This document shows positions 34,875 through 50,931 of a DNA stretch of 64,000 nucleotides, piece after piece. Under the pieces are notes generated by a model. The model was not told the origin of the DNA, did not search any database, and saw nothing but the letters and a program-made list of their open reading frames with translations. The stretch covers positions 682,001-746,000 of the forward strand of contig NZ_CP053084.1 in assembly GCF_013004065.1 (NCBI RefSeq), read 5' to 3'. Position 1 is the stretch's first letter, and every line of letters starts with the position of its first letter. Source of the stretch: Limnobacter sp. SAORIC-580 (GTDB taxonomy: Bacteria; Pseudomonadota; Gammaproteobacteria; Burkholderiales; Burkholderiaceae_B). A program made the translations under genes and the position numbers.

Positions 34875-36014
34875 ATGAATTTTTCCAGCCTGCAAGAATG
34901 GCTTGTCAACCTGGGTGTACCCAGCGGTGTTTTTACTTACAACACCTGGGTATATCAGGTTTTCATGGTGGTATTTCTCACACTCCTGGTCAGCTATACC
35001 GTGGGTTTGATTTTCAACCGCCTGGGTCGGTTTGCTGAAAAATCGAACAACCCCTGGGACGATGTGTTCCTGGAAAGTGCCCGCAAACCCCTGAAAATTC
35101 TGATCTGGTTGCTGGGCATTTCCTGGGCCGCCAGAATTACCCATACCGCAAACAATGCGGAAATATTCGAATTCATCGATCCTGTTCGCAGGGTGGGTGT
35201 GATTGTGTTGATTACCTGGTTCCTGTTTGGTTTGGCCAAGCGATTCGAGCTTGCACTTCAAAGCCCGGATAGAGTGAAAGAACCGCTGGACGCCACCACA
35301 GCCAGCGCCATCGGCAAGTTGCTTCGCGCCTCCATTGTCATCACCGCTGCCTTGGTTATTCTTCAAAACCTCGGGTTCAGTATTTCTGGTGTGCTGGCGT
35401 TTGGTGGTGTGGGTGGCATTGCTGTGGGTTTTGCTGCGAAAGATTTGCTGGCGAATTTTTTCGGTGGCCTCACCGTATACATGGACCGCCCCTTTGTGGT
35501 GGGCGACTGGGTGCGTTCACCTGACAAAAATATTGAGGGCACTGTCGAACACATCGGCTGGCGACTCACGCGCATACGCACTTTTGACAAGCGCCCGCTG
35601 TATGTACCCAACGCCACTTTCAGCACCATTTCACTGGAGAACCCCTCGCGCATGACGCACCGTCGAATTCAGGAAACAATTGGCGTGCGATATGAGGACC
35701 TGCAACAGGTGCGCAGTATTGTTGATGCGGTCAAGCGCATGTTGATTGAGCACGCCGAAATTGATGACAATCAAACCCTGATTGTGAATTTGAATCAGTT
35801 TGCAGACTCAAGCGTGAACTTGATGGTGTATACGTTTACGAAAACAACAATTTGGGTGAAGTACCACGAGGTGAAGCAGGATGTGTTGTTGAAAATCGCC
35901 GAGATTATTGAGCAGCACGGCGCTGAAATTGCGTTCCCCACCACCACATTGCACGTGGCCAGCCTGCCAGAACAGTTTGCACAGGCAGGCGTTGCGCCAG
36001 CCACCAAGCCTTAA
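34875..36014 (+). CDS. MscS family mechanosensitive channel
   Basis: 379 residues from the ATG at 34875, chosen because an upstream in-frame start would overlap the terminator. Several N-terminal membrane helices (about residues 20-130), then the pore helix and beta domain signature ISGVLAFGGVGGIAVGFAAKDLLANFFGGLTVYMDRPFVVGDWV (about 170-215), EGTVEHIGWRLTRIRTFDKRPLYVPNATF and the alpha/beta C-terminal domain. It releases solutes under hypo-osmotic shock. The stop overlaps that of the convergent adenylyltransferase by 4 bases. Confidence 0.92.
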   Translation: MNFSSLQEWLVNLGVPSGVFTYNTWVYQVFMVVFLTLLVSYTVGLIFNRLGRFAEKSNNPWDDVFLESARKPLKILIWLLGISWAARITHTANNAEIFEFIDPVRRVGVIVLITWFLFGLAKRFELALQSPDRVKEPLDATTASAIGKLLRASIVITAALVILQNLGFSISGVLAFGGVGGIAVGFAAKDLLANFFGGLTVYMDRPFVVGDWVRSPDKNIEGTVEHIGWRLTRIRTFDKRPLYVPNATFSTISLENPSRMTHRRIQETIGVRYEDLQQVRSIVDAVKRMLIEHAEIDDNQTLIVNLNQFADSSVNLMVYTFTKTTIWVKYHEVKQDVLLKIAEIIEQHGAEIAFPTTTLHVASLPEQFAQAGVAPATKP

Positions 36015-36505
36015 AGTTTGCGTATTTTCTCGAGCGTGGCGGTGGTGCTGCGCTCGTGTTCAAACGCGATGGACAGCGCTGTGCCCCCCCAACTTTGAAC
36101 TTCTTTGGCTCCCACCATTTTTTCAACAGGCCAATCGCCACCTTTCACCAGCACATCCGGGCGTGCCGCCAGAATGGCGTTCAAAGGCGTGTCTTCTTCG
36201 AAGTAAGTAACCAAGGCTACGCACTCCAGTGCAGCCAGAACATGCATGCGATCAACTTGGGTGTTGATGGGGCGGTCTGGGCCTTTGCCCAGGCGTTTGA
36301 CTGATTCGTCAGAATTCACAGCCACAATCAGGCTTTGCCCTTCTTGCGCGGCTTGGTCCAGATAAGTGACGTGTCCACGGTGCAACAAATCAAAAACCCC
36401 GTTGGTAAACACCACGGGGCCTTTGAGTTGTTTTGCGCGCTCGGCAAGCTCGCTGGGGTGGCACACCTTTTTTTCAAAGCGAGCCGGTTTTCCGGTTGTT
36501 GTCAT
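36011..36505 (-). CDS. rfaE2: D-glycero-beta-D-manno-heptose 1-phosphate adenylyltransferase
   Basis: 164 residues, a stand-alone nucleotidyltransferase half of HldE/RfaE. Seen: VVFTNGVFDLLHRGHVTYLDQAA, with the HxGH-type motif (HRGH), NSDESVKRLGKGPDRPI, and VLVKGGDWPVEKMVGAKEV. It makes ADP-heptose for LPS inner core; the kinase half would be encoded elsewhere, as in Burkholderia and other split-gene species. It follows the ferritin-like gene after 12 bases on the same strand. Confidence 0.93.
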   Translation of the reverse strand: MTTTGKPARFEKKVCHPSELAERAKQLKGPVVFTNGVFDLLHRGHVTYLDQAAQEGQSLIVAVNSDESVKRLGKGPDRPINTQVDRMHVLAALECVALVTYFEEDTPLNAILAARPDVLVKGGDWPVEKMVGAKEVQSWGGTALSIAFEHERSTTATLEKIRKL

Positions 36506-36517
36506 GGTGCAATCAAA

Positions 36518-37381
36518 TCAGGCAGCGTTGCCAACGGGCGGTTCGGTTGCGCCCAAACGCGCCATCACTTCCTTGCGGTAGCGGTTCAGGTCTTGTACCG
36601 ATTCAAAAGTGCGTTCAAACAACAAGCTCATGTTGTGCAAAATGCGGTCAACCACTTTCTTTTCCCAATCGGCGTCAAAGCGAATTTGACCATCCAGCCA
36701 GTTTTCCAGCCAATCGGGATCGGGCAGGCGGCTTTGCACCGTGTCGTTGGGGAACAGGTCTTTGTTCACATGCAAATTGGTGGGGTGCAAAGGTTTTTGG
36801 GTGCGGCGGGCCGAAGCCATGAGCACGCCAATTTTGCTGAATGCAGCACGTGCACCATCGCCCACTTCCACCAAGGCTTTTTTCATGTAACGCAGGTAAG
36901 CGCCACCGTGGCGTGCCTCGTCATGCGAAATGATTTTGTAGATTTGTTTGATGACCGGCTCGGTGTGCCAATCCGAGGCGCAACGGTACCAGTGATTCAA
37001 GCGTATTTCACCGCAGAAGTGCAGCATCAGTGTTTCAAGGGGCGGTGCCGGGTCGAATTCAAATCGCACGGCATGCAGTTCTTCTTCGGTGGGCAGCAGG
37101 TCGGGGCGGAAACGGCGCAAGTATTCCATCAAGACCAGCGAGTGCTTTTGCTCTTCAAAAAACCAGATGGACATGAAGGCCGAGAAGTCGCTGTCGTGTT
37201 TGTTGTCACGCAAGAACATTTCTGTGGCGGGCAAGGCCGACCACTCGGTAATTGCGTTCATTTTGATGGTTTGGGCCTGCTCTTCAGACAACTTGGAGGC
37301 ATCAAACTGATCCCAGTTGATGTCCTTTTCCATGTTCCAACGAACGGACTCCAATGACCTGAATAACTCTGGATACAACAT
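36518..37381 (-). CDS. Ferritin-like / acyl-ACP desaturase-type diiron protein
   Basis: 287 residues with a full set of candidate diiron ligands spaced as in the ferritin/acyl-ACP desaturase superfamily: EWSALPATEM (about residue 46), FEEQKH (about 76-80), FCGEIRLNHWY (about 123) and HDEARHGG (about 153-158). The pairs EExxH and DExRH are the desaturase-type motifs. The C-terminal third is charged and helical. Substrate unknown; an oxygen-using lipid or other hydrocarbon reaction is inferred only from family. It has its own upstream region with two palindromes and sits next to the lipid-modifying cluster. Confidence 0.75.
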   Translation of the reverse strand: MLYPELFRSLESVRWNMEKDINWDQFDASKLSEEQAQTIKMNAITEWSALPATEMFLRDNKHDSDFSAFMSIWFFEEQKHSLVLMEYLRRFRPDLLPTEEELHAVRFEFDPAPPLETLMLHFCGEIRLNHWYRCASDWHTEPVIKQIYKIISHDEARHGGAYLRYMKKALVEVGDGARAAFSKIGVLMASARRTQKPLHPTNLHVNKDLFPNDTVQSRLPDPDWLENWLDGQIRFDADWEKKVVDRILHNMSLLFERTFESVQDLNRYRKEVMARLGATEPPVGNAA

Positions 37382-37512: not shown

Positions 37513-38001
37513 TTAGCCTGCCTGTTTTTTCAACCAGCGCATCAGTCCCCCCAGCATCGGGATCTTCTCGTACAGCTCCTCAGCCGTGTCCCAATAGTCT
37601 CTGTGTGACTGCACAAGGCCGTTTTGGTTCAACTGCAGGTGCGACGACCCTTTGATGCACTGCACTTGTCCCACCTTGAAACGCTTCATCTCGAACAGGA
37701 AGTCCCAAGCCATAAACACTTGTTGCCCCGATTGAAATGCAGTGTGCACCACAAAGCGCGGGTTATTAACCTGATGAAACATCTCGCCAAAAATACGGGC
37801 GATGTCCTCTACCCGGTTCACTTCGTTGAACGGGTCTTTGAAATAAGCGTCACCCGCATAAAACCTGGGCATGTCAGCCACGGTTTGCTCGGTCAGGTGC
37901 TCAAAAAAATCGATTAGTCTGCGCAGGGGTTCAGACAATTGCTGGCGATCCAGCGGGGCCAAGCCACCTGTTTTGTTGGCGGTGTTATTTGCTTTGCTCA
38001 T
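37513..38001 (-). CDS. NTF2-like (SnoaL-type) protein of the lipid cluster
   Basis: 162 residues from the ATG at 38001 (MSKANNTANKTGG). The fold pattern is NTF2/SnoaL: RRLIDFFEHLTEQTVADMPRFYAGDAYFKDPFNEV, RIFGEMFHQVNNPRFVVHTAFQSGQQVFMAWDFLFEM, GSSHLQLNQNGLVQSHRDYWDTAEELYEKIP. Proteins of this kind occur next to SDR, FAD-oxidoreductase, DUF1365 and CFA genes in light- or singlet-oxygen-responsive clusters. It is the last gene of the leftward run, overlapping the SDR gene by 17 bases. Confidence 0.8.
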   Translation of the reverse strand: MSKANNTANKTGGLAPLDRQQLSEPLRRLIDFFEHLTEQTVADMPRFYAGDAYFKDPFNEVNRVEDIARIFGEMFHQVNNPRFVVHTAFQSGQQVFMAWDFLFEMKRFKVGQVQCIKGSSHLQLNQNGLVQSHRDYWDTAEELYEKIPMLGGLMRWLKKQAG

Positions 38002-38794
38002 GGCCCAGTTCCGCCTTGTTTTTGTTCGCAGTAATTTTACGCACTGCAGCAAAGTACAGTGAATACGGCAGTATGCGCAGTGTGCGCAAGGTGCGGGTGA
38101 ATGCCTTGGGGAAATGGATTTCGAACTCGCCCTTTTCTAGACCGGTAATAATTTCCTGTGCAGCTTTTTCAGCAGTAATCAGAAATGGCATGGGAAACGT
38201 GTTTTTGCGGGTCAGCGGTGTGTCTACAAAGCCCGGGTTCACCACGCTGACGCCCACGTGGTGGGGCTGTAACTCCACATGCAAGGCCTCAGCCAGGTTG
38301 ATCAATGCAGCTTTGGTGGGGCCGTAGGCCAGTGAATTTGGCAATCCCCGATAACCCGCCACACTCGAGACGATGGCCAGGTGCCCCGACTTTTGTTCAA
38401 GTAGCTTGGGTAGCGCATTGGCCAGCACATACATGGTGCCGTTGAGGTTCACATCAATTTGTTGTTTTACTTTTTCAATGTCGAACTCAGCAACTGACAT
38501 CTCGGAATAAGTGCCTGCCATCAACACAATCAAATCAACGCCACCCCAAGCGGCCATAACGTTGTCGAAAGCCGTTTTCACAGCAGCTTGTTGGGTAATG
38601 TCCAGGGGCAGGGCAGTGGCATGCTGCAATTCTCCGGCCAGTGTGGTCAGTTTGTCCGCACTGCGCGCCGACAACATTTGTTTGCAGCCGAGTTGGTCCA
38701 ACTGGCGGGCCAAGGCCTCACCAATGCCGGTAGAAGCGCCCACCAGCCACACCCGCTTGTTTTGCCACTGGGTCAGTTTCGGGTTAAAGCTCAT
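37985..38794 (-). CDS. Short-chain dehydrogenase/reductase
   Basis: A 269-residue classical SDR: cofactor motif LVGASTGIGEALAR (about 17-30), VLMAGTYSEM in place of the usual NNAG, catalytic Ser (VSSVAGYRGLP), YGPTKAA (Tyr-x-x-x-Lys), VNPGFVDTPLT. A C-terminal helical extension ends with a hydrophobic stretch (ILPYSLYFAAV). It likely uses NADP(H) to oxidise or reduce a lipid-like substrate; the substrate is unknown. It lies 12 bases after the DUF3833 gene. Confidence 0.9.
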   Translation of the reverse strand: MSFNPKLTQWQNKRVWLVGASTGIGEALARQLDQLGCKQMLSARSADKLTTLAGELQHATALPLDITQQAAVKTAFDNVMAAWGGVDLIVLMAGTYSEMSVAEFDIEKVKQQIDVNLNGTMYVLANALPKLLEQKSGHLAIVSSVAGYRGLPNSLAYGPTKAALINLAEALHVELQPHHVGVSVVNPGFVDTPLTRKNTFPMPFLITAEKAAQEIITGLEKGEFEIHFPKAFTRTLRTLRILPYSLYFAAVRKITANKNKAELGHEQSK

Positions 38795-38806
38795 GCGGGT
38801 TCCTTC

Positions 38807-39373
38807 TTAATCTCGTTTGCGAAAGCTCAATAGCACCTCGCCCAATTCAATTCCGAATTTGCTCATGGTGGCACGGTTAAGCATCACCTTGTCATCCATC
38901 TGGTACATCCAGTCATCGAACTGCACTTCATAGGTGGTGCCGTCGACTGGCAGCAGCATGGTGTATTTCCATTGAAATGCATTGCCTGAAGTTTCGCCAT
39001 TGGCTTGCCCCAGCACATCGCCGGCGGTGCCGGTGTACTTGTTGCCGTCTTTTTTCAATGTCCACACCCGTTTTTGGGTGGTGCCATCGGAGTAAGTAAA
39101 GTCTTCATCCAGCACGCCGGTGTTGCCATCCCAGGTGCACTTCATGACCACGGTGAAACGCTTCACCACTTTACCCGAGCGGTCTTGAAACACACCCCAT
39201 GCATCAATGGTGCCATTGAAATATTCTTTTAAGTCGAGCACCGGTTTTTCCTGTGCATAGTCTGCGGGTTGCGGGCTTGCGCAAGCGGTTAAAACCAACG
39301 CACCTGCCAGGGCTAGGAAAGCCAGTTGCAGTTTGCGTGCCCATTGTTTTACCCATTGCTTTGCGATAGTCAT
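38807..39373 (-). CDS. DUF3833 lipoprotein
   Basis: 188 residues from the ATG at 39373, which overlaps the MFS stop as ATGA. A lipobox (LVLTA|C, about residue 30) is followed by the DUF3833 pattern: YFNGTIDAWGVFQDRSGKVVKRFTVVMKCTWDGNTGVLDEDFTYSDG, RVWTLKKDGNKYTGTAGDVLGQANGETSGNAFQWKYTMLLPVDGTTYEVQFDDWMYQMDDKVMLNRATMSKFG. A beta-rich, lipocalin-like lipoprotein found with CFA-type operons; it may present lipid at the periplasmic face (inference). Confidence 0.88.
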   Translation of the reverse strand: MTIAKQWVKQWARKLQLAFLALAGALVLTACASPQPADYAQEKPVLDLKEYFNGTIDAWGVFQDRSGKVVKRFTVVMKCTWDGNTGVLDEDFTYSDGTTQKRVWTLKKDGNKYTGTAGDVLGQANGETSGNAFQWKYTMLLPVDGTTYEVQFDDWMYQMDDKVMLNRATMSKFGIELGEVLLSFRKRD

Positions 39374-40755
39374 GCTGTACTCCCAATTGCGGTGTTGCTT
39401 GTTGTTCGGTTCAGGCTGGCCAGGCCACTGCGGCCCAATAGCACAATGGCCAGCAACTTCAAGGCGCAGGGCACCAAGGCATAAACCCACAGTAGTGGGT
39501 CGTTGGCCAGTTGTTGCAGCAAGCCCATGTTTTGGTAAGACTCGGTTTTTGCCATGTCGGCTGAATAGCTGAACCACTGCAAGGTGCCCAGCGCAAAGCT
39601 GGGTGCCAATGCCAGGTTGAATTTGTTGATCCAGTTCCAGAGTCCAAAGTAAGTGCCTTCAGTTTTGCCACGTTCACCGTTTTCTTCAATCAGGCGGGCC
39701 ACCAGGGCTGCGGGTAGTGACAAATCGGCGCCCAAGGCAAAGCCGGTGACTACGCATACAAACAGATAGCCTGCCAAGTCACCTTCACCCAGCACAACCA
39801 CAATGATGAAGGCAGGTATGGACAACACCATGCCCAATAACCATGAGCGCGCCAGGCCAATTTTACTGGCCAGCCATACCCAGAATACTGTGGATGCAGC
39901 ACCCACTAAAAAGTACACAGCCAGCACCCATTGATCCGAATCGCCCAAGCCAAGGCGATCGCGCATGTAAAAAGGCACCAGTGTGGCAGGCAGTGCAGCG
40001 GCCAGACCGTTGCACAGAAACACACCCATTAACTTGCGAAAGTTTTTTCGACGCAAGGGTTGCACAATGTCGGCAAAGCCTTTGCGAATCGCAGCGGCCG
40101 CGCTGGCCTGCGCGTTGTTGAAAGTTTCAGCAAACGGGCTCGCGGCTTGTTGTGCTGTTCGGTCGGGTTTGGGTGAAAACTTAAGCAATAAAAACATGCC
40201 CAACACCAGCATTACCGCGAATACTGTGAATATCAGTCCCGCATTCGTTTCAAGTGCCAGCGACACGGCAAACACCACACCCAGAATACCCACGCCTTCA
40301 CGCACTGCCACATAGGTTGAGCGTTCCTTGTCGGTGTGCCCAAGTTCAGCCCCCCAGGCCTGGTAAGCAATGCTGGCGAAGCTGTAGCCAAGGTGCACCA
40401 CGATCAAGCTTACCATCAGGCTGGCTGCATATTCAGTGGGTGTATTGCCCACCGGGAAAAACACACCTGCCATGCCCAGCAACAACAAAGGTACAGCCAG
40501 GAGCAAGGGCAGGGCGTAGCGGTTTCCCTGTCCGCTGCGTCGGTCAACCCACAAGCCGATGGCAGGGTCAAGCACTGCATCGAGCAGGCGCGACAACAGC
40601 AGGATGATACCCACCCAAGCGGACGGTACTTCGTAAATGCGGGAGTACAGGTAGGGCACCTGAATGTAGATGGGCACGGCCACCGCGCCCAGGGCCCAGC
40701 CCAGAAGGCCGTAGTTCAGCAGATCTTTGGCGCTGGTGCGGGGCAGTTGGTTCAT
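39370..40755 (-). CDS. MFS transporter of the MFS_2/GPH type
   Basis: 461 residues, about 12 membrane helices. The family signature near the N terminus is SRLLDAVLDPAIGLWVDRRSG (MelB-like D-DP-G-D pattern). Other features: AWGAELGHTDKERSTYVAVREGVGILG and the C-terminal LWNWINKFNLALAPSFALG, also family-typical. The substrate is unknown. Within the eight-gene run it sits between the chalcone-isomerase-like and DUF3833 genes, overlapping the latter by 4 bases, so a lipid or lipid precursor is a plausible cargo (inference). Confidence 0.87.
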   Translation of the reverse strand: MNQLPRTSAKDLLNYGLLGWALGAVAVPIYIQVPYLYSRIYEVPSAWVGIILLLSRLLDAVLDPAIGLWVDRRSGQGNRYALPLLLAVPLLLLGMAGVFFPVGNTPTEYAASLMVSLIVVHLGYSFASIAYQAWGAELGHTDKERSTYVAVREGVGILGVVFAVSLALETNAGLIFTVFAVMLVLGMFLLLKFSPKPDRTAQQAASPFAETFNNAQASAAAAIRKGFADIVQPLRRKNFRKLMGVFLCNGLAAALPATLVPFYMRDRLGLGDSDQWVLAVYFLVGAASTVFWVWLASKIGLARSWLLGMVLSIPAFIIVVVLGEGDLAGYLFVCVVTGFALGADLSLPAALVARLIEENGERGKTEGTYFGLWNWINKFNLALAPSFALGTLQWFSYSADMAKTESYQNMGLLQQLANDPLLWVYALVPCALKLLAIVLLGRSGLASLNRTTSNTAIGSTA

Positions 40756-40770
40756 GTCGGCGAGGCCGTA

Positions 40771-41340
40771 TCAGCGCTTCAAGCCAATCAATTCGCGGCG
40801 CATTTCAGGCGCAGAAGTTTTTGGGTCCAACCAAATACCCATGAAAGCCTCGGCAAGTTCCGGGTCGTCCACTTTGGCCAGTGGCAAACCGTTGCGGAAA
40901 AATTGAACTCCCTTGCCCGGTGTAAAAAGGGCACTCAAGGTGTGGCCTTTTTTCACATCCGGAAAAATCTCATTCAGCTTTACCAGCCAACCTTGGCGTT
41001 GCACCTCAGTACCAGCGCCAATTTCTTCCATTTCATCAATGCTGCGCTCGGCAATGTCGCTGCCTTCAAAATCGCGGGCGTATTTCAGTTCAAGCCAAGA
41101 GGGGTCACGTTTGTAGTTAAATCCTTCGGGGTCGGCGTTCGACCACAATTGCCCGTCATACACCCGCAAACCGAACCAGCGCAGTGTACCGTAGCCCATC
41201 AGCTTTGCATTCTCAATGGTTTGCGTGACCTGTTTGGGCGGGGCATTCAAGTTGCTGTTGGCCAGCGCGAAGGGTGCAGTGCCCAGCAGGACCAGACACA
41301 ACAATGCGCGTTGAATGAACTGAACCGGAAACAACTTCAT
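40771..41340 (-). CDS. Chalcone isomerase-like periplasmic protein
   Basis: 189 residues with a signal peptide (residues 1-27, ending FALA|N) and a chalcone-isomerase-like domain (MGYGTLRWFGLRVYDGQLWSN, LELKYARDFEGSDIAERSIDEM, FPDVKKGHTLSALFTPGKGVQFFRNGLPLAKVDDPELAEAFMGIWLDP). Bacterial members are usually not true chalcone isomerases; fatty-acid-binding-like folds have been proposed. It is secreted, unlike the plant enzyme. Start overlaps the CFA-type gene stop by 4 bases. Confidence 0.88.
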   Translation of the reverse strand: MKLFPVQFIQRALLCLVLLGTAPFALANSNLNAPPKQVTQTIENAKLMGYGTLRWFGLRVYDGQLWSNADPEGFNYKRDPSWLELKYARDFEGSDIAERSIDEMEEIGAGTEVQRQGWLVKLNEIFPDVKKGHTLSALFTPGKGVQFFRNGLPLAKVDDPELAEAFMGIWLDPKTSAPEMRRELIGLKR

Positions 41341-42563
41341 TGATTCTCCACTTTCTCGAGATAAAACTGAATGACATCGGTGCTTTCATATTCAAAGCCG
41401 GCTTCACAGTAAGCCAGGTAAAACTCCCAGGTACGAATGAACGGATCATCAAAGCCCTGGTTTTTCACCTGTTCCAGTGTTTTCATGAATTGCACTCGCC
41501 ACCGGCGCAATGTTTCAGCATAGTCTTTTCCAAAGGCTTTTTCCGACACCACACGCAAACCATGCTTTTCTGCCATGGCTCTGAACTTGGCGGGCGAGGG
41601 CAACATGCCGCCCGGGAAAATATATTGCTGAATAAAATCGGTGCCTTTGCGGTAACGGTCAAACAATTCGTCTTGAATCACGATGGTTTGAATGGCCGCT
41701 TTGCCGCCCGTCTTCAGAAGGCGGTTCACCGACTGAAAATACGCTGGCCAGTATTCTTCGCCCACAGCTTCAAACATTTCAATCGATGCAATGTGGTCAA
41801 ACTGGCCACGGCAATCCCGGTAATCTTGCAGGCGGAAGTCGGCTTGTTCTGCAAAACCCTGTTTGGCCAAGCGCGTCTTGGCGTAGGCCAGTTGCTCCGT
41901 TGACAAGGTCAGGCCCACCAGGTTTGCACCTGCGGCACATGCTTTTTCTGCAAAACCACCCCATCCGCATCCAATTTCCAGAACTTGCTCACCAGCCTTG
42001 GGGCTCAGGTAGTTGAGCATGGCTTGGTATTTGGCGTGTTGGGCCTGTTCCAAACTCAAGCTGGTGTCACCGTCAAACAGTGCACTGGAGTAGGTCATTG
42101 TGGGGTCTAGCCACAACTGGTAAAACGGATTGCCCAAATCGTAATGGGCATGAATGTTTTTCTTGGCCTGTGCTTTGGTGTTGCGGTTTAGCAGGTGTTT
42201 GATTTTGTAGGCAATGCTGCCCAGAAAACTGCCATAAATAACGGTTTCTACTGCTTTGCGGTTTTCCAGAAACACGCCAAGAATGGAGGCTATGTCGTGC
42301 GTTTCCCATTCACCCGCAATGTAGGCTTCAGCAAAACCAATATCGCCTGCCTTCAAGGCTCGCTGGCACACAGCCCACGAGTTCAGCTTGATTTTCGCGC
42401 TGGGCTGGTCTTCTTCGCCACCAAACAACAGGTGTACGCCTTCTGGAGTCACAATCTCCAGGCGGCCTTTTTTCAGTTTGGTCAGCAATTTCAGGGTCCA
42501 CTGTGCCGACGAGGGTGCGTGGCTGGGCAGTTGGAACTGGGAAAAAGTAATGGCTTGAGTCAT
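41337..42563 (-). CDS. Cyclopropane-fatty-acyl-phospholipid synthase family methyltransferase
   Basis: 408 residues. An N-terminal CFA domain (LKKGRLEIVTPEGVHLLFGG, GDIGFAEAYIAGEWETHDIASIL) and SAM-dependent methyltransferase: HAHYDLGNPFYQLWLDPTMTYSSALFDGD, LEIGCGWGGFAEKACAAGANLVGLTLS, GQFDHIASIEMFEAVGEEYWPAYFQSVNRLLKTGG. It adds a methyl(ene) group to unsaturated acyl chains; relatives in light regulons include the furan-fatty-acid methylase UfaM, so cyclopropane formation is not certain. It lies between DUF1365 and the chalcone-isomerase-like gene, with 4-base overlaps on both sides. Confidence 0.93.
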   Translation of the reverse strand: MTQAITFSQFQLPSHAPSSAQWTLKLLTKLKKGRLEIVTPEGVHLLFGGEEDQPSAKIKLNSWAVCQRALKAGDIGFAEAYIAGEWETHDIASILGVFLENRKAVETVIYGSFLGSIAYKIKHLLNRNTKAQAKKNIHAHYDLGNPFYQLWLDPTMTYSSALFDGDTSLSLEQAQHAKYQAMLNYLSPKAGEQVLEIGCGWGGFAEKACAAGANLVGLTLSTEQLAYAKTRLAKQGFAEQADFRLQDYRDCRGQFDHIASIEMFEAVGEEYWPAYFQSVNRLLKTGGKAAIQTIVIQDELFDRYRKGTDFIQQYIFPGGMLPSPAKFRAMAEKHGLRVVSEKAFGKDYAETLRRWRVQFMKTLEQVKNQGFDDPFIRTWEFYLAYCEAGFEYESTDVIQFYLEKVENQ

Positions 42564-43378
42564 GCTTCGAGTTCAGTCTGCGTAATTGTTTGACGGGGTG
42601 GTGCTGGCTTGCCGTGAAACTTTGCGCCTTTCAGCAGAAGTTTCACCGCTTGCCAATGAATTTTTGCGATCACGGCCAATGTAAACCAACCGTATTTCAA
42701 TAAGGTTTTACCCCAAAGCAGGGTGCTTGGATGCATCAGTTCTCCGCTCACGCTGGTGCTGAGCTGTTGAACTTGTTCTTCAAAATAGTTAATGCGCGCC
42801 AGTGAGTGGTCTGCACTGCTGACAAACCGGAACTCATAACGACCCGACACCGGGAAAAAAGGTGACACATGAAATTCTTTCCTGGCATGCAGCAGCATGC
42901 CTTTGTTCAATGGGGCCTTGCTTTCCGGGGCCGTTAGCAAATAGAAGTGTCGTTCACCAAAGGTATTGTTCACCTCGCACATCACGGCACGGCACTGTTG
43001 CGCCTCATCGTGGAAATACCAAAAACTGACCGGGTTGAATACGTAGCCCAGCACCTTGGGGAAGGTGTGCAAATGCACAGGGCCTTGAAGTGCCAAGCCT
43101 GTTTCCAATTCAACCTTGCGCACCAAATTACAAACAAACTCGGGAAACTTCAGCGTGTGCGCCTCGAACCCGTAATTGTGTGCCGACACCGACACCAAAC
43201 CCTTGCCGTCAATTACCGGGTAAGCATGTGTGGGTTTTGAATCGGATTGAGTCGAGAAAACAAGACGAACAAAGCAGGCGCCCGTGGTAAAACCGTTTGC
43301 TTTGGGAAGTGCCCGGTGATGTTTCACCATGCCCCAAGCCAGTTTCACTTCATTGAGTTGAAAACGCCCTCGCGCCAT
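42560..43378 (-). CDS. DUF1365 protein
   Basis: 272 residues from the ATG at 43378, whose A is shared with the previous stop (TGATG). Motifs typical of DUF1365: TFPKVLGYVFNPVSFWYFHDE, CRAVMCEVNNTFGERHFYLL, KEFHVSPFFPVSGRYEFRF. Function unknown; almost always sits between an FAD oxidoreductase and a CFA-type methyltransferase, as here, so it probably handles the same acyl substrates. Confidence 0.93.
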   Translation of the reverse strand: MARGRFQLNEVKLAWGMVKHHRALPKANGFTTGACFVRLVFSTQSDSKPTHAYPVIDGKGLVSVSAHNYGFEAHTLKFPEFVCNLVRKVELETGLALQGPVHLHTFPKVLGYVFNPVSFWYFHDEAQQCRAVMCEVNNTFGERHFYLLTAPESKAPLNKGMLLHARKEFHVSPFFPVSGRYEFRFVSSADHSLARINYFEEQVQQLSTSVSGELMHPSTLLWGKTLLKYGWFTLAVIAKIHWQAVKLLLKGAKFHGKPAPPRQTITQTELEA

Positions 43379-44691
43379 CAAGCCGCCTTTTGTGTGGTTT
43401 TCGTCAACTTGTCGATCACCGCCCGCGCGGCATTCAAGCCAGACGTATGTCCATCTTCGTGAAAACCATATTTCATCCACGCACCTGCCAGGTAGACATT
43501 GTTCAAGCCCTGAAGTTCGGCCAATGCTTGTTGGGCCTGAACCGCTGGCACATCAAAAACGGGGTGCGAATAATGAATTTCCCTGAACACCTGCTTTGGG
43601 TCGGGCTGAATAATCGGGTTCAGTGTCACGAAAATTGGCGTTTTCACTGGCAGTGGTTGAAGCAGATTGCTCCAGTAGGTAACCGATACGCTGGGTTGAG
43701 GATTCAGCACATCACTCAAATAATTCCAGGATGACCATGTGCTGCGGGTTTTGGGCATCAGTTTTACATCGGTGTGCAGGTACGCCACGTTGGCTTGGTA
43801 CTTGATGTGTTGCAACTGGTGTTTCTGGGCTTCGTTGCCTTTGAGCATTCCCAACGCTTCATCACTGTGGCAGGCCAAAATCACATAATCAAATTCCTGC
43901 TCGCCCAATTTTGTTTTTAGGGTGGGTTTTGTACCTGTGGAATTTACTTCCAGCACAGGGGTGCTCTGGTGCACCTCGTCGACAAAAGGCAATATTTTTT
44001 GCACGTAATTGCGCGCGCCGTTCTTAACGGTGAACCACTTGGGCCTGTCGTTCACCTGCAACAATCCGTGGTTGTGGCAAAACTGAATGAATGTGGCCAA
44101 AGGGAAGGCAAGCATTTGTTCGCTGGGGCAAGACCAAATTGCGGCGGCCATCGGGATCAAATACCAGTCTCTGAATTCTGCGCTGTATTTTTCCTCGACC
44201 AGGTAGTCGCCCAAATGCATTTTCGCCTTGCTTTGGAAAAGTGCCGCACGCCCCGCATCGGCCACCATGGCGGTGGCCTCTTTGTTAAAGCGCAAAATAT
44301 CCAGCAGCATGCGAATAAAACGTGGGCGTAACAAATTGCGGCGTTGCGCAAACACCGTGTTCAGGTTTGTGCCTGCCCATTCAATATTCAATTCAGGCAA
44401 ACACACTGAAAAGGACATATCCGATTCCACGGTTTCTACCGAAAGTTCGTCGAACAGGCGAATCAGGTTGGGGTAGGTGCGCTCGTTGTACACCAGAAAG
44501 CCGGTGTCCACCGCCACCTGCTTGCCTTCCACTTCGATGTCCACCGTGTTGGTGTGGCCCCCAATGTAATCATTGGCCTCGAACAGGGTGGTGTGGGCAT
44601 GGCCGCGCAGTGCATAGGCAGCGGTCAGGCCGGAAATTCCGCCACCCACAATGGCAACTTTGGGCAGTAATTCTTTTGAATTCTTGATCAT
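43378..44691 (-). CDS. FAD-dependent amine-oxidase-like oxidoreductase
   Basis: 437 residues. Rossmann FAD motif VAIVGGGISGLTAAYALRG (residues 12-30), TTLFEANDYIGGHTNTVD, VDTGFLVYNERTYPNL and the C-terminal VYLAGAWMKYGFHEDGHTSGLNAARAV, which closes the flavin site. It belongs to the amine-oxidase/phytoene-desaturase-like group paired with DUF1365 and CFA methyltransferases; a desaturation or oxidation of acyl chains is inferred. It is first in the leftward run, with its own upstream region separated from folE2 by a terminator. Confidence 0.92.
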   Translation of the reverse strand: MIKNSKELLPKVAIVGGGISGLTAAYALRGHAHTTLFEANDYIGGHTNTVDIEVEGKQVAVDTGFLVYNERTYPNLIRLFDELSVETVESDMSFSVCLPELNIEWAGTNLNTVFAQRRNLLRPRFIRMLLDILRFNKEATAMVADAGRAALFQSKAKMHLGDYLVEEKYSAEFRDWYLIPMAAAIWSCPSEQMLAFPLATFIQFCHNHGLLQVNDRPKWFTVKNGARNYVQKILPFVDEVHQSTPVLEVNSTGTKPTLKTKLGEQEFDYVILACHSDEALGMLKGNEAQKHQLQHIKYQANVAYLHTDVKLMPKTRSTWSSWNYLSDVLNPQPSVSVTYWSNLLQPLPVKTPIFVTLNPIIQPDPKQVFREIHYSHPVFDVPAVQAQQALAELQGLNNVYLAGAWMKYGFHEDGHTSGLNAARAVIDKLTKTTQKAA

Positions 44692-44765
44692 GTGTACTCA
44701 GGGTTAAAAAAAGCAAGGGTATTCACTAGCATCCTAACCTTTTATTTACTGCAGTAAGTGAAATT
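44692..44765 (-). promoter_or_regulatory. Upstream region of the FAD oxidoreductase operon with a 12-bp palindrome
   Basis: A perfect 12-bp palindrome TTACTGCAGTAA (44746-44757) lies about 55-65 bases before the start codon, between the folE2 terminator and the operon. It is a candidate operator or promoter element. I looked for a T(G/A)TACA-type direct repeat known for Pseudomonas LitR-like regulators and did not find one. Confidence 0.4.
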
Positions 44766-44790
44766 GGTTCTGGCTTTTTGAGCCAGAACC
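44766..44790 (-). terminator. Terminator hairpin of folE2
   Basis: A perfect 10-bp stem (GGTTCTGGCT/AGCCAGAACC) with a 5-base loop lies 10 bases past the folE2 stop on the minus strand, followed by AATTTC. The U tract is short, but the stem is strong and the position fits. Confidence 0.7.
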
Positions 44791-44800
44791 AGCTTACGGA

Positions 44801-45604
44801 TTAATTTTGTTTGCGTTTGTCTTCTTCAATCCAGGCCACGGCAGAATGGTTGTGGATCGATTCAAAGTTTTCGCTTTCAATGCGGTAAGCCAAAACTTTC
44901 TTGCTGGCCCTCAGGCGAATGGCAACATCACGTACCAGGTCTTCAACAAACTTGGGATTGTCGTAGGCGCGCTCTGTCACATATTTTTCGTCAGGGCGCT
45001 TCAGCAAGCCCCACAATTCACACGAGGCCGATTCTTCCGCCATGCGGATCAGTTCTTCCACGGTGATGCCGTCTGCCACCAGTGCTCGAATCGTAATGTG
45101 GCTGCGCTGGTTGTGCGCACCATACTCGGAAATTTTCTTGGAGCAGGGGCACAGGCTGGTCACGGGCACCACCACCGTCATAAACACATCTGTGCTTGCA
45201 CCATTGTTGTCGGCTTCCAAAGTCACTTCATAGTCCAGCAGGCTGGCTACACCCGATACGGGTGCAACTTTGCGCACGAAGTAAGGAAACTTCATCGTGA
45301 TGGTTCCCGCATTCGAATCCAGGCGTTGAAGCATGTCGCGCATCATTTGTTTCATGCCCGCAGGCGTCAATGCACTTTCCTGGGTTTGAAGAATTTCAAG
45401 GAAACGCGACATGTGCGTTCCTTTCACATCGCCGGGCAGGAACACCGACATGTCGATGGTGGCCACTGAAGGTTGTGGGCCTTCCAGTGTTTCCACAATG
45501 ATCGGGTGTTTAATTGCGCGCACCCCCACGCGTTGGATGGCGATGTTGCGCTTGTCTGCGCGTGATTGTTCGTCAGGTAAAAAAAGTCCGTCCGGTGCAT
45601 TCAT
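44801..45604 (-). CDS. folE2: GTP cyclohydrolase I type 2 (FolE2)
   Basis: 267 residues from the ATG at 45604 ([13 protein letters not shown]) with GGAG 9 bases upstream; a TTG extension of five codons is less likely. FolE2 signatures: [59 protein letters not shown] (metal-binding CPC), [35 protein letters not shown]. It makes dihydroneopterin triphosphate from GTP with relaxed metal use. In many genomes it backs up FolE under zinc limitation; here it is divergent from the LitR-like regulator, so a link to pterin supply in the light response is inferred. No Zur box was recognised upstream. Confidence 0.95.
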
Positions 45605-45924
45605 GATGAAGCGCTCCAATAATAGTTACTACTTTGTGATTGGATGTGCATCGAGTGCACGGCGAAATACTTGCTTGGTTTGTGCATGGGTCTGTACTGG
45701 CGCCTTGGTCCCAAGGTTTTCCCGGACTGGACTAGACAGACGCTTGTCTTTACAATGCACTTTATTCACTTGAATGTCTCTATATGTGTGGTTAAATCTC
45801 AGCCAATATGCTAATTTGATTGGCAATCAGGCTTTGAGTTCCATTATTATTCGTTCAGTGTGGCAAGTCAATTTGTCTAGGACAAAACAAAGATGTTGAA
45901 GTTTCACCGTGGTCAGGTTCAGGT
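45605..45924. promoter_or_regulatory. Divergent 320-base control region folE2 / LitR-like gene
   Basis: No ORF. It holds several dyads: GTGCA-N5-TGCAC (45646-45660) in the folE2 leader, CCTTGG-N2-CCAAGG near 45700-45720, AGACA/TGTCT arms near 45735-45750, GCCAAT-N11-ATTGGC (45802-45824), and TTTGTC-TAG-GACAAA (45872-45886) 40-55 bases before the regulator start. TTGGCA (45820-45825) and TATTAT (45845-45850) are separated by 19 bases, the long spacer typical of MerR-activated promoters. Assignments are by eye and unverified. Confidence 0.45.
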
Positions 45925-46866
45925 ATGAATGAGCGTGCAGATCTAAGTCAACCCTCATTTTCTATTGCAGCAGTCGAGCGGGACACCGGCTTGCCCAAAG
46001 ACACTTTGCGTGTCTGGGAAAAACGCTACAACTTTCCACAACCCGGTAGGGATTCATTCGGCGAGCGTATTTATTCCATTGATCAAGTTGAAAAACTGCG
46101 AGTCATCAAGCGTCTTCTCGATGGCGGGCATCGTCCGGGAAAAATCATTGGTTTGAGCATTGACGAGCTGGTGAAACTGGCCGAGGTCAGCAGCGCTGGG
46201 TCGCGCATGAATGTGGCGCCTGACAGCCTGGACGAGCTGAACAGTTACATGGAACTGATCAAGCGGCACGATGCCGAAGAATTCCGCCAAACCATGTCGC
46301 GCCTTGCGCTGACGATGGGGCTGCATCGTTTCGTGGTAGAGGTGGTTGCACCCATGAACGCAATGGTGGGCGATGCCTGGGCGCGTGGTTATTTTGAAAT
46401 TTTTGAAGAGCACATCTACACCGAAACCATTCAGGTGGTGTTGCGCAATGCCTTAAACACCATTCCGTCCACACGCAAAGGCCCGCGCGTGTTGCTGACC
46501 ACACTGCCCAACGAATTACATGGTTTGGGATTGCTGATGGCTGAGTGCATTTTTTCCATGGAGGGCGCACAGTGTATTTCTTTGGGCACTCAAACCCCGA
46601 TTTACGACATTGTGTTGGCCTCGCGCGCGCAGAACATCAATATTGTGGCCCTGTCATTCTCTGTTATTCAAAGTTCGCCCGCAGTGCTGGAAGCAGTGGC
46701 CGAGTTGCGTGAAAAATTGCCTCCGATGGTTGAAATTTGGTGTGGTGGCTCTTCTACAGCATTGCGCAAAAAGCCTTCTGAAGATTTCGTGTTGTTGTCC
46801 AGCCTGGAGTCCATCAGTGAATCAATTGCAGACTGGCGACTGCGCAACAAATTCAATCAGAATTAA
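45925..46866 (+). CDS. LitR/CarH-type MerR regulator with cobalamin-binding light-sensor domain
   Basis: 313 residues. MerR winged helix at 11-75 (FSIAAVERDTGLPKDTLRVWEKRYNFPQP, GERIYSIDQVEKLRVIKRLLDGGHRPG), a helical linker, then a B12-binding domain. The residues that cap the adenosyl group in CarH are kept with exact spacing: Trp152-x9-Glu162-His163 (DAWARGYFEIFEEH). The lower-ligand motif E-x-H-x-x-G is present as ELHGLG with His199. The end carries the Rossmann-like part (LGTQTPIYDIVLASRAQNINIVALSFS). In the dark AdoB12 tetramers repress; light releases them. It is followed after 5 bases by the DUF2256 gene and then the photolyase. Confidence 0.92.
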   Translation: MNERADLSQPSFSIAAVERDTGLPKDTLRVWEKRYNFPQPGRDSFGERIYSIDQVEKLRVIKRLLDGGHRPGKIIGLSIDELVKLAEVSSAGSRMNVAPDSLDELNSYMELIKRHDAEEFRQTMSRLALTMGLHRFVVEVVAPMNAMVGDAWARGYFEIFEEHIYTETIQVVLRNALNTIPSTRKGPRVLLTTLPNELHGLGLLMAECIFSMEGAQCISLGTQTPIYDIVLASRAQNINIVALSFSVIQSSPAVLEAVAELREKLPPMVEIWCGGSSTALRKKPSEDFVLLSSLESISESIADWRLRNKFNQN

Positions 46867-46871
46867 TTTCC

Positions 46872-47042
46872 GTGCCGGATAAGCGGTCTTTCAAAGGCAA
46901 TAAATCTTATTTGCCCAGCAAGCTTTGCACCGTGTGCGGGAAGGAAATGACCTGGCGCAAAAGTTGGGCCAAGAATTGGGATGACGTAAAATATTGCTCA
47001 GAGGCCTGCCGCAAGGCGGCGCCCAGAGCGGGCAGCAAATAA
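46872..47042 (+). CDS. DUF2256 small zinc-finger-like protein
   Basis: A 56-residue gene with a GTG start, 5 bases after the regulator stop. It contains CTVCGKEMTWRKSWAKNWDDVKYCSEACR, the DUF2256 signature (CxxC, WRK, W, VKYCSxxCR), with four cysteines for a probable zinc site, and basic flanks (KRSFKGNK, RKAAPRAGSK). DUF2256 proteins are regularly adjacent to, or fused with, cryptochrome/photolyase genes. It lies 16 bases before the photolyase. Function unknown. Confidence 0.9.
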   Translation: MPDKRSFKGNKSYLPSKLCTVCGKEMTWRKSWAKNWDDVKYCSEACRKAAPRAGSK

Positions 47043-47058
47043 GCAGGCAGTAAATAGC

Positions 47059-48600
47059 ATGAGCAGCAAAACCAAAGCCGTGGTTGTGTTGGGCGATCAA
47101 CTCGACCTGAATAACCCCGCACTTCTGGCCAACCCCCCGAAATTAGCCGATGTGCTCATGGTGGAGTCACCTGTCGAGTCCACCGTGGTGTGGGTTCATA
47201 AGGTTCGAATTGCTTTGTTTCTCAGTGCAATGCGCCATTTTGCTCAAGAGTTGCGCAATGCCGGTTACACCGTGCATTACCGCAGTTTGGGCGATACGGG
47301 CCAACACAGCTTGGCCACGGAAGTGGCAAACCTGTGCAAACAGCACGGGTACACCAGCATCGACATGGCCGAGCCCGGCGAATGGCGCTTGGAGCAAGAC
47401 TTTCTAACGCTCGCCAAATCAGAAAACATCAAGCTTCGCATGCTCGAGGACTCGCATTATTTGTGCAGCCGTGCTGAATTCGCAAAGTGGGCCAGTGGTT
47501 ACAAACAGATGCGCATGGAGTATTTTTATCGCGAAATGCGCAAGCGCACCGGTGTGTTGATGGAGGGTGCTGAACCTGCTGGCGGTAAATGGAATTTTGA
47601 TGCTGACAATCGCAGTGCCTTTCCCAAGGCTGGTCCTGGAGACATTACGCCCCCTGCATTTTTTGAACCCGATGAAATAACACAAACGGTGTTTGCCGAG
47701 GTTGAAGCGAATTTTCCCGGTCACCCGGGCACATTGAAAAATTTCGCGTGGCCAGTTACGCGTCAACAGGCTTTGAAGGCACTCGATGCCTTCATTGAAA
47801 ACCGATTCGTCAACTTTGGCACCTATCAGGACGCCATGTGGACTAACACGCCGTTCGGTTGGCATTCATTGGTTTCGAGCGCAATCAATCTGCATTTGCT
47901 CCATCCGCTCGAGGTGATTGAAAAAGCCGAAGCCGCGTACCGCGCGGGCAAGGTGGATGTAGCCAGTGCAGAAGGGTTTATTCGCCAAATTCTGGGCTGG
48001 CGTGAATTCATGCGCGGGGTGTATTGGCTCGACATGCCGAAGATGCGCGAAGACAATCATTTGCAAGCCAAACTTGATTTGCCCAAATGGTTTTGGACCG
48101 GCAATACCCACATGAACTGTCTGAAAGACTCCATCGGTCAAACGCTGGATTATGGTTATGCGCATCACATTCAACGCCTCATGGTGATCGGCAATTTCGC
48201 CCTGCTCGCAGGCCTCGTTCCACAGCAGGTAGAAGACTGGTTTTTGGCGGTGTATGTGGATGCGGTGGAATGGGTTGAGCTGCCCAATGTGGCCGGCATG
48301 GCCTTGTTTGCAAATGGCGGGCGCTTTACCAGCAAACCCTACATTGCATCGGGTGCTTACATCAAACGCATGAGCAACTACTGCGCCGGTTGCAAATACA
48401 ACCCAGCTGAGAAAACTGGTGACAAGGCCTGCCCATTCACCACGCTGTATTGGGGGTTTCTTGACCAGCATGAAAAAATGCTGTCCGCCAACCCGCGCAC
48501 TGGCCTCATGGCCAAAAACATTGCCCGACTGGATGAAGCCCAACGTCAGGCCCTTCGGCAAAAAGTGGCCGACACCTTCAAGAATCTTGAACAACTGTAA
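47059..48600 (+). CDS. Iron-sulfur bacterial cryptochrome/photolyase (FeS-BCP, PhrB/CryB type)
   Basis: 513 residues. N-terminal alpha/beta antenna domain (VVVLGDQLDLNNPAL, VESPVESTVVWVHKVRIALFLSAMRHFA), helical FAD domain (NFGTYQDAMWTNTPFGWHSLVSSAINLHLLHPLEV, GFIRQILGWREFMRGVYW, VDAVEWVELPNVAGMALFANGG). Cysteines at about 354, 442, 445 and 458 (CLKDS, YCAGCKYNP, KACPF) have the same spacing (88, 3, 13) as the 4Fe-4S ligands I recall for Agrobacterium PhrB. Family members repair (6-4) photoproducts or signal blue light and use a ribityllumazine antenna. It is in one transcription unit with the LitR-like regulator. Confidence 0.95.
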   Translation: MSSKTKAVVVLGDQLDLNNPALLANPPKLADVLMVESPVESTVVWVHKVRIALFLSAMRHFAQELRNAGYTVHYRSLGDTGQHSLATEVANLCKQHGYTSIDMAEPGEWRLEQDFLTLAKSENIKLRMLEDSHYLCSRAEFAKWASGYKQMRMEYFYREMRKRTGVLMEGAEPAGGKWNFDADNRSAFPKAGPGDITPPAFFEPDEITQTVFAEVEANFPGHPGTLKNFAWPVTRQQALKALDAFIENRFVNFGTYQDAMWTNTPFGWHSLVSSAINLHLLHPLEVIEKAEAAYRAGKVDVASAEGFIRQILGWREFMRGVYWLDMPKMREDNHLQAKLDLPKWFWTGNTHMNCLKDSIGQTLDYGYAHHIQRLMVIGNFALLAGLVPQQVEDWFLAVYVDAVEWVELPNVAGMALFANGGRFTSKPYIASGAYIKRMSNYCAGCKYNPAEKTGDKACPFTTLYWGFLDQHEKMLSANPRTGLMAKNIARLDEAQRQALRQKVADTFKNLEQL

Positions 48601-50863: not shown

Positions 50864-50871
50864 TTCTTGAA

Positions 50872-50931
50872 GTGAGGACGACCTCACCGCTCAACCTTCG
50901 ATCGGGGACGGCCCCATTTGCTTGATGGGAG
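50872..50931 (+). promoter_or_regulatory. Guanidine-II (mini-ykkC) riboswitch
   Basis: Two adjacent hairpins with the diagnostic ACGR loops: GTGAGG-ACGA-CCTCAC (50872-50887) and GGGG-ACGG-CCCC (50904-50915), a 16-base linker, then the ribosome binding site GGGAG (50927-50931) 5 bases before the gdx ATG. CCCAT (50913-50917) can alternatively pair with ATGGG (50925-50929), which would hide that site when the second hairpin is open. Guanidine binding to the loops should stabilise the hairpins and expose the site, turning on translation. The gene downstream is a guanidinium exporter, as expected for the class. Confidence 0.93.

Follow-up and report, generated by a model that had tools for sequence, protein, structure and literature searches.

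The window analysed here, a stretch of 64,000 nucleotides from the complete 3.3 Mb genome of Limnobacter sp. SAORIC-580 (Burkholderiales; contig NZ_CP053084.1, positions 682,001 to 746,000), carries a gene for a LitR/CarH-type regulator, litR, beside lipid, pterin and photolyase genes (Table 1). On the plus strand litR is followed by the DUF2256 and photolyase genes, and this group is divergent from folE2 and an eight-gene lipid operon on the minus strand. An earlier sequence-only reading of the locus had suggested that one LitR-like regulator may drive lipid, pterin and DNA photoprotection. Family searches of the window proteins matched every gene family named beforehand at its place, in the eight-gene run as well as for folE2 and the divergent litR, DUF2256 and FeS-BCP photolyase genes. 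The eight minus-strand genes are tightly packed, with overlaps of 1, 4, 4, 4 and 17 bases and gaps of 15 and 12 bases (taking ATG starts at 43378 for DUF1365, 39373 for DUF3833 and 38001 for NTF2); the limit of 15 bases given earlier for overlaps and gaps thus holds for the gaps but is exceeded by one overlap. folE2 lies 109 bases upstream of this operon, with a hairpin in between. The litR product has the same sequence as that of Limnobacter sp. MED105 and shares 73-98% identity with those of 11 more loci, named Limnobacter or belonging to metagenome-assembled genomes (MAGs) near Limnobacter (L003-L012, L015; L and G numbers are our labels for loci and genomes).

Table 1. Features of the litR locus and the distant 137-aa gene (positions are those of the window unless a locus is given).
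Feature	Position	Strand	Basis
NTF2/SnoaL-like protein, last operon gene	37513..38001	-	SnoaL_2 PF12680 E 2.2e-11; ATG 38001
Short-chain dehydrogenase/reductase (SDR)	37985..38794	-	adh_short E 2.5e-44
DUF3833 lipoprotein	38807..39373	-	PF12915 E 3.4e-72; lipobox LTAC near N-terminus, by eye
MFS_2 transporter	39370..40755	-	nearest solved relatives are MFSD2A lysophosphatidylcholine symporters
Chalcone-isomerase-like protein, N-terminus signal-peptide-like	40771..41340	-	PF16036 E 6.9e-12
CFA/UfaM-type fatty-acyl methyltransferase	41337..42563	-	CMAS PF02353 E 2e-83; under the cut-offs of matching NCBIfam Cfa models
DUF1365 protein, UfaO family	42560..43378	-	PF07103 E 6e-56; DUF1365 as UfaO family after PMC7380195
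FAD-dependent oxidoreductase, UfaD-type position, first lipid-operon gene	43378..44691	-	Amino_oxidase E 1e-21; ATG 44691
Conserved element AGGTTAGGATGCTAG, upstream of lipid operon	44726..44740	-	alignment of 13 loci
Hairpin with weak T tract, between folE2 and lipid operon	44765..44791	-	
folE2, GTP cyclohydrolase IB	44801..45604	-	PF02649 E 2.9e-89
Secreted glutathione peroxidase (gpx) gene remnant	45632..45826	-	tblastn with intact relative
Weak promoter-like site TGGACT-17-TACAAT, rightward	45728..45756	+	
Promoter-like site TTGACT-17-AATAAT, leftward, adjoining operator	45843..45871	-	
Probable LitR operator TTGTCTAGGACAA	45873..45885	.	palindrome counts across loci
litR, MerR-type helix-turn-helix (HTH) and B12-binding domains	45925..46866	+	family and structure matches
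DUF2256 protein, GTG start	46872..47042	+	PF10013 E 3.6e-20
FeS-BCP photolyase, PhrB/CryB-type	47059..48600	+	DPRP E 1.7e-75; 5e-144 to (6-4) photolyase 5kcm
137-aa orphan gene	G000:C1:1778370-1778783 (L065:6371-6784)		

LitR aligns with CarH structures across the DNA-binding and B12 domains. W152 and E162-H163, which form the Wx9EH motif, and E197, H199, G202, S244 and GG274-275 of the B12 motif are kept in all 39 rows of the alignment, which represent 35 distinct loci since four of them (the window, G113, G209 and G017) appear twice. The B12-binding motif of class I LitR/CarH has been given as D/ExHx2G/P-x41-SxT/V-x22-27-GG, with Wx9EH contacting the adenosyl (Ado) group (PMC9304148); a conservative departure from it here is S for T/V at residue 246. 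The B12 signature is intact, which agrees with the assignment to the LitR/CarH type. Wx9EH, ExHxxG...GG and the MerR HTH are shared with CarH of Thermus, Bacillus and Myxococcus (class I LitR), the targets of which are carotenoid genes, whereas lipid genes lie beside litR here. Pseudomonas class II LitR, in contrast, retains one of the two B12 domains (PMC9758184), and both domains with their ligand residues are intact in the present protein; nor does it consist of a four-helix bundle only, without B12 binding, by which class II is defined. Pseudomonas PmlR2 is controlled by a LOV protein (PMC9758184), whereas the B12 motif is intact here. In class III LitR (Burkholderia) the C-terminus does not resemble the functional domain, while here it shows B12-domain similarity, a distinction drawn from the class description and not from the B. 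multivorans sequence. Adenosylcobalamin (AdoCbl) is probably available to the cell, because the genome carries a PduO-type adenosyltransferase and a methylmalonyl-CoA-mutase-family (AdoCbl-mutase-family) gene; a BtuR-type adenosyltransferase was not found in the genome.

In 25 of 29 litR loci (L002-L012, L014-L027), some of them cut by contig ends, the region leftward of litR holds lipid genes; they were not seen there in L028-L030, and L013 ends at a contig edge. The chalcone-isomerase-like gene was undetected in L009 and L022, and this gene together with those for the MFS and DUF3833 proteins in L023. Among 200 Burkholderiales genomes (requested completeness at least 90%, LitR threshold E 1e-20) LitR was found in 67, DUF1365 in 91 and both in 62, and in 54 of these 62 the two lie within 12 kb of each other, divergently in 40 and on the same strand in 14. 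The Fisher p for this co-occurrence is 4e-23, a value which ignores kinship among the genomes. Since 25 of the 27 loci L002-L028 are syntenic and LitR and DUF1365 co-occur in this way, the presence of lipid genes beside litR is not due to chance. In L144-L146 the lipid operon itself ends with litR.

A sigma/anti-sigma layer had been noted earlier as absent from the immediate surroundings; for ChrR this holds over the whole source genome, in which no protein passes the cut-off of the model TIGR02451. Two sub-cut-off matches, from model position 105 onward, fall in one protein of 229 aa with two cupins which passes Cupin_7; a Caulobacter control matches. In the 200 genomes the model matched 65 at E 0.001 and passed its cut-off in two, so ChrR is rare in Burkholderiales. 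An example of the regulator swap, for which the sequence-only reading had recommended a synteny search, is G203, where ChrR passes the cut-off 2.2 kb from DUF1365 and LitR has no match. In G172 LitR, ChrR and two DUF1365 genes were found, on different contigs. It was also observed that a pair of genes for a ferritin/AurF-like protein and a heptose-phosphate adenylyltransferase, at 36011-37381 in the window, flanks the module, on either side, in many Burkholderiales loci, and that conservation of the ferritin-like protein is unusually high, with 69-100% identity in the loci where it was found.

The probable operator TTGTCTAGGACAA sits 39 bases before litR and is an exact copy of the palindrome TTGTCNNNGACAA, here called the box. 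With at most one mismatch the box was found upstream of litR, in a range from 1 kb upstream of the gene to 60 bases inside it, in 50 of 57 loci, while the best of 19 permuted palindromes built from the same half-site letters reached 6 of 57. These loci are L002-L028 and L094-L123, the latter being the 30 best of the LitR matches among the 200 genomes that were retrieved as loci; at least 14 of the 57 are Limnobacter by name or closeness, and when the loci were clustered by similarity of upstream DNA the box was present in 33 of 37 clusters. Within the 27 loci L002-L028 (479 kb) all 17 exact boxes lie within 450 bp upstream of litR, as do 35 of 51 boxes with one mismatch allowed. Ten lipid loci without litR (168 kb; eight from genomes without a LitR match and two from G172) contain no exact box and five with one mismatch, and none of them has a box at up to two mismatches in the 420 bp before the FAD gene. 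At one mismatch the box is not enriched genome-wide (132 matches per strand; reversed control, 125); exact copies of TTGTCNNNGACAA in the genome number six, of which two are TTGTCTAGGACAA. In the window, matches at up to three mismatches barely differ from expectation (51 against 45.6), and for this reason only the exact box is considered.

A second box lies 62-64 bp from the first in 27 of the 57 loci (63 bp in 18), any other distance occurring at most three times, and the five next best of the permuted palindromes gave no such pairs. In 33 of 57 loci a leftward -35 element, TTGAC, starts 1-4 bases beyond the box and is accompanied by a -10-like hexamer; for the same geometry random positions averaged 0.2 with a maximum of 3, and the count in the rightward direction, toward litR, was 0. 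Because of this excess the box, judged by its sequence context, is primarily part of a leftward sigma-70-type promoter, and it lies in the litR leader as well. The promoter reads toward the lipid/gpx/folE2 side, and in the window the box faces folE2.

In relatives outside Limnobacter the region between litR and the FAD gene also contains a conserved three-way-junction RNA with a CCUCC-repeat loop (L018:9285-9394), with matching stretches in L016, L017, L019, L020, L021 and L027. For 18 of its 25 predicted pairs, one or more of seven sequences show a change at both positions. Rfam gave no match at the gathering threshold in L016-L022 and only irrelevant weak hits for L018. The RNA was found in 6 of the 200 genomes, five of them from one family, and because some of these lack DUF1365 or have it on another contig, it resembles a stand-alone small RNA whose loop is anti-Shine-Dalgarno-like.

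Across the genus, 15 of 16 Limnobacter genomes carry TTGTCTWRGACAA, and the remaining one is 85% complete. The 37 distinct sites comprise 14 at litR, 15 before a gene for a 137-aa protein (29 of 37 together) and 8 elsewhere, the last including an orthologous pair before a gene with a weak Cache-domain match and two sites before SDR genes. At the 137-aa gene the site is 10-19 bases before the start, in 15 of the 16 genomes. The protein has no Pfam match, looks receiver-like in its pattern, and finds matches across Limnobacter genomes down to 29% identity; among its 50 homologues the six with organism shown are Limnobacter or an unclassified gammaproteobacterial MAG.

Leftward of the box, several relatives have a secreted glutathione peroxidase gene (gpx) read first by the leftward promoter and folE2 about 12 bases further on (e.g. 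L162). In the window only a gpx remnant is left, with both gene ends retained and the middle gone, while intact gpx is present in several relatives. The gene is also reduced or missing in L002, L006, L008 and L011, and because of this it was probably lost more than once. The photolyase is of the FeS-BCP (6-4) type by homology, and Cys 354, 442, 445 and 458 are present, which we take to be the four FeS cysteines in their usual places; its gene adjoins litR in the Limnobacter-like loci which reach that far, and in L013, L014 and L016.

The lipid operon opens with genes for an FAD oxidoreductase, for DUF1365 and for a CFA-type methyltransferase, in this order, and its product is therefore likely to be a furan fatty acid or a related methylated one. 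In Rhodobacter sphaeroides a methylated furan fatty acid is made by the desaturase UfaD, the oxygenase UfaO (DUF1365) and the methylase UfaM (PMC7380195). The same three families, described there for Rhodopseudomonas palustris as well, are all found in one operon here, compared as families and not against R. sphaeroides sequences; unlike in the present operon, no chalcone-isomerase-like or MFS gene is named in the accessible text of that account. To regard the MFS protein as without assigned role, as had been done, is too pessimistic. All four hits of a single-sequence PDB search were MFSD2A, and a nine-sequence profile gave 1.7e-19 for MFSD2A against 1.3e-10 for MelB, which places the protein, by homology, closer to MFSD2A, a lysophosphatidylcholine symporter, than to sugar carriers. 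Against this likeness counts that the NCBIfam sugar-symporter model gph also matches, far under its cut-off. For the chalcone-isomerase-like protein the structure-database search found no solved relative, and matches of DUF3833 as a relative of phosphatidylethanolamine-binding proteins were weak (best E 0.07) and are not relied on. The MFS protein, the secreted chalcone-isomerase-like protein and the DUF3833 lipoprotein are probably lipid-trafficking parts, and the operon would then be a lipid-handling set spanning the envelope.

Upstream of this operon AGGTTAGGATGCTAG is common to 8 of 13 aligned loci, with variants in two more, and its only exact copy in the window is the one in Table 1; it matches no recognised promoter type. 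A sigma-E (TGATC..CGTA-like) promoter before the FAD gene was rejected, as matches were confined to L146 and L018 among 30 loci and none combined the two consensus halves with the TGATC-N18-CGTAT spacing.

Taken as a whole, the locus is a variation on light-response modules known in Pseudomonas, in which class II LitR proteins (PplR/PmlR) stand in a LitR-photolyase-ufaM-folE module under light control, with phrB, SDR, FAD oxidoreductase and ufaM genes next to the regulator (PMC9758184). Light-inducible genes of P. putida include folE and cryB (PMC9758184), to which folE2 and the photolyase gene correspond here. What is new is the probable TTGTCNNNGACAA operator, the promoter geometry and the predicted regulon at a B12-type LitR; among the matches listed in the open-access literature there was no paper on a TTGTCNNNGACAA operator or on LitR in Limnobacter.

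From the genes, their conserved synteny, the motif residues, the operator, the promoter geometry and the lack of ChrR over cut-off, all of which are read from sequence, we infer the following mechanism, which we consider rather probable. The CarH-like, B12-type LitR would bind TTGTCNNNGACAA in the dark as a repressor, acting in Limnobacter on its own litR-DUF2256-photolyase operon through the box in the leader, on the leftward gpx/folE2 promoter, the -35 of which abuts the box, and on the distant 137-aa orphan gene; light would destroy the bound AdoCbl and LitR would be released. The eight-gene operon would make and handle methylated or furan fatty acids by means of its FAD desaturase, methyltransferase and DUF1365 oxygenase. 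Some other Burkholderiales have the same promoter and box immediately in front of the FAD gene without another gene in between (L024, L145, L148), and it is from these that LitR control of the lipid genes in the window is suggested. In Limnobacter gpx and folE2 intervene, and the lipid operon may be driven by read-through, by its own promoter or by both.

A number of observations weigh against this mechanism, and they touch each branch of the original proposal of one LitR for lipid, pterin and DNA protection, which is favoured by the conserved operator between litR and the leftward genes, abutting the leftward promoter. The box is missing in 7 of the 57 loci at one mismatch, and in the window one good box is left, with no pair. 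For TTGTCTWRGACAA the reversed control still gives 15 matches against 39, so that the location of the sites, and not their number, is the argument. In the pterin branch, folE2 is the only GTP cyclohydrolase I found (a search of the genome gave no PF01227 match) and should not be dark-silent, as it also has a housekeeping role; if its promoter were fully repressed in the dark and no second one existed, the cell would be starved of folate. folE2 is beside litR only in L002-L012, L014 and L015, and among fetched loci also in L147 and L149. No photolyase gene was found next to litR in L017-L019 and L021-L025, which speaks against DNA repair as a fixed member. In the lipid branch, no box at up to three mismatches lies upstream of the window's lipid operon, where another conserved element is found instead, and 29 of the 91 DUF1365 genomes lack LitR at E 1e-20, therefore the lipid operon can live without LitR.

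These last points, together with the hairpin after folE2 and the presence of much or all of the operon in the fetched loci L135-L141, from DUF1365 genomes lacking LitR, agree with an alternative in which the control exerted by LitR is limited to litR, photolyase, gpx/folE2 and the orphan gene, the Limnobacter lipid operon being constitutive or regulated at AGGTTAGGATGCTAG and the closeness simply inherited. This we regard as unlikely, though to be taken seriously, given the box immediately before the FAD gene in the three loci named above, the proximity of LitR and DUF1365 in 54 of 62 genomes, and the light induction of ufaM and phrB in Pseudomonas mendocina, which amounts to 25-33 fold (PMC9758184).

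Two further points against the proposed dark repressor bear on alternatives of their own. Residue 153, after the Trp, is never His in the 39 rows, and His at this place is the light-state ligand in Thermus CarH. The regulator might thus sense cobalamin, redox state or reactive oxygen and not light, as has been proposed for the Vibrio cholerae MerR protein VCA0056, on which reactive oxygen species were suggested to act (PMC5241685). We judge this improbable, since Wx9EH, called crucial for CarH photoreceptor activity (PMC9304148), and the B12 motif are kept and photolyase lies directly downstream of litR in Limnobacter. Secondly, the CarH operators known so far consist of 11-bp direct repeats containing TnnACA (PMC9304148), in contrast to the 13-bp palindrome found here. 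Instead of tandem repeats nnnnTnnACAn it was the palindrome TTGTCNNNGACAA that stood out, although no search was aimed at direct repeats, and varied CarH operators have been reported (PMC9304148). The Pseudomonas operator T(G/A)TACA-N12-TGTA(C/T)A also differs (PMC9758184). With such a form, and with the box tied to LitR by sequence evidence, the palindrome could belong to another regulator which co-occurs with litR. That appears very improbable in view of the clustering of exact boxes upstream of litR and their absence from the ten litR-less lipid loci; moreover, the LitR sites of Pseudomonas are similarly placed over the -35 and within the 5' leader (PMC9758184). The dark repressor at TTGTCNNNGACAA remains our preferred explanation.

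Similar effectors are found under other control elsewhere. RpoE2-ChrR targets in Shewanella, partly predicted, are a periplasmic glutathione peroxidase (pgpD), the phrB-cfa operon and photolyase-related phr, with sigma/anti-sigma control at TGATCC..CGTAAT (PMC4336711). They resemble gpx, photolyase and cfa here, where no ChrR passes the cut-off, and the effector set is therefore similar and the control different. In R. sphaeroides loss of chrR raises furan fatty acid output (PMC7380195). Vibrio has MerR and ChrR control (PMC5241685), and the MerR-type PhrR regulon in RegPrecise includes a lipid-cluster gene (PMC12971978), control being predicted for VC1123, a neighbour of the CFA gene VC1122 (PMC12971978, PMC5241685). 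The PhrR of PMC5343134 is a TyrR-family protein, unrelated to this one. Outside the module, a Guanidine-II riboswitch was noted at 50870-50916, before a small multidrug-resistance transporter gene.

To our knowledge B12-based photoreceptors have been known so far from carotenoid control. A wider view, which we put forward tentatively and hold as somewhat doubtful, is that in many Burkholderiales such a photoreceptor would be the light switch of furan-lipid remodelling. It would act via an operator of new design, a pair of 13-bp palindromes spaced by about 63 bp (six helical turns), which flank a sigma-70 promoter and could be bridged by one CarH-like tetramer, and would take the place of the sigma-E/ChrR circuit by which similar effectors are controlled in Shewanella and Rhodobacter. 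An MFSD2A-like lysophospholipid transporter and its periplasmic partners would be the operon's addition, and an orphan receiver-like protein would also be under the switch in Limnobacter. For a B12-type LitR that neighbours lipid and not carotenoid genes, the analysis provides an operator and a regulon that can be tested directly, and it suggests that a similar photoprotective effector set is placed under two unrelated control systems in different proteobacteria. The MFSD2A-like transporter and its secreted partners are candidates for missing parts of bacterial furan-lipid biology.

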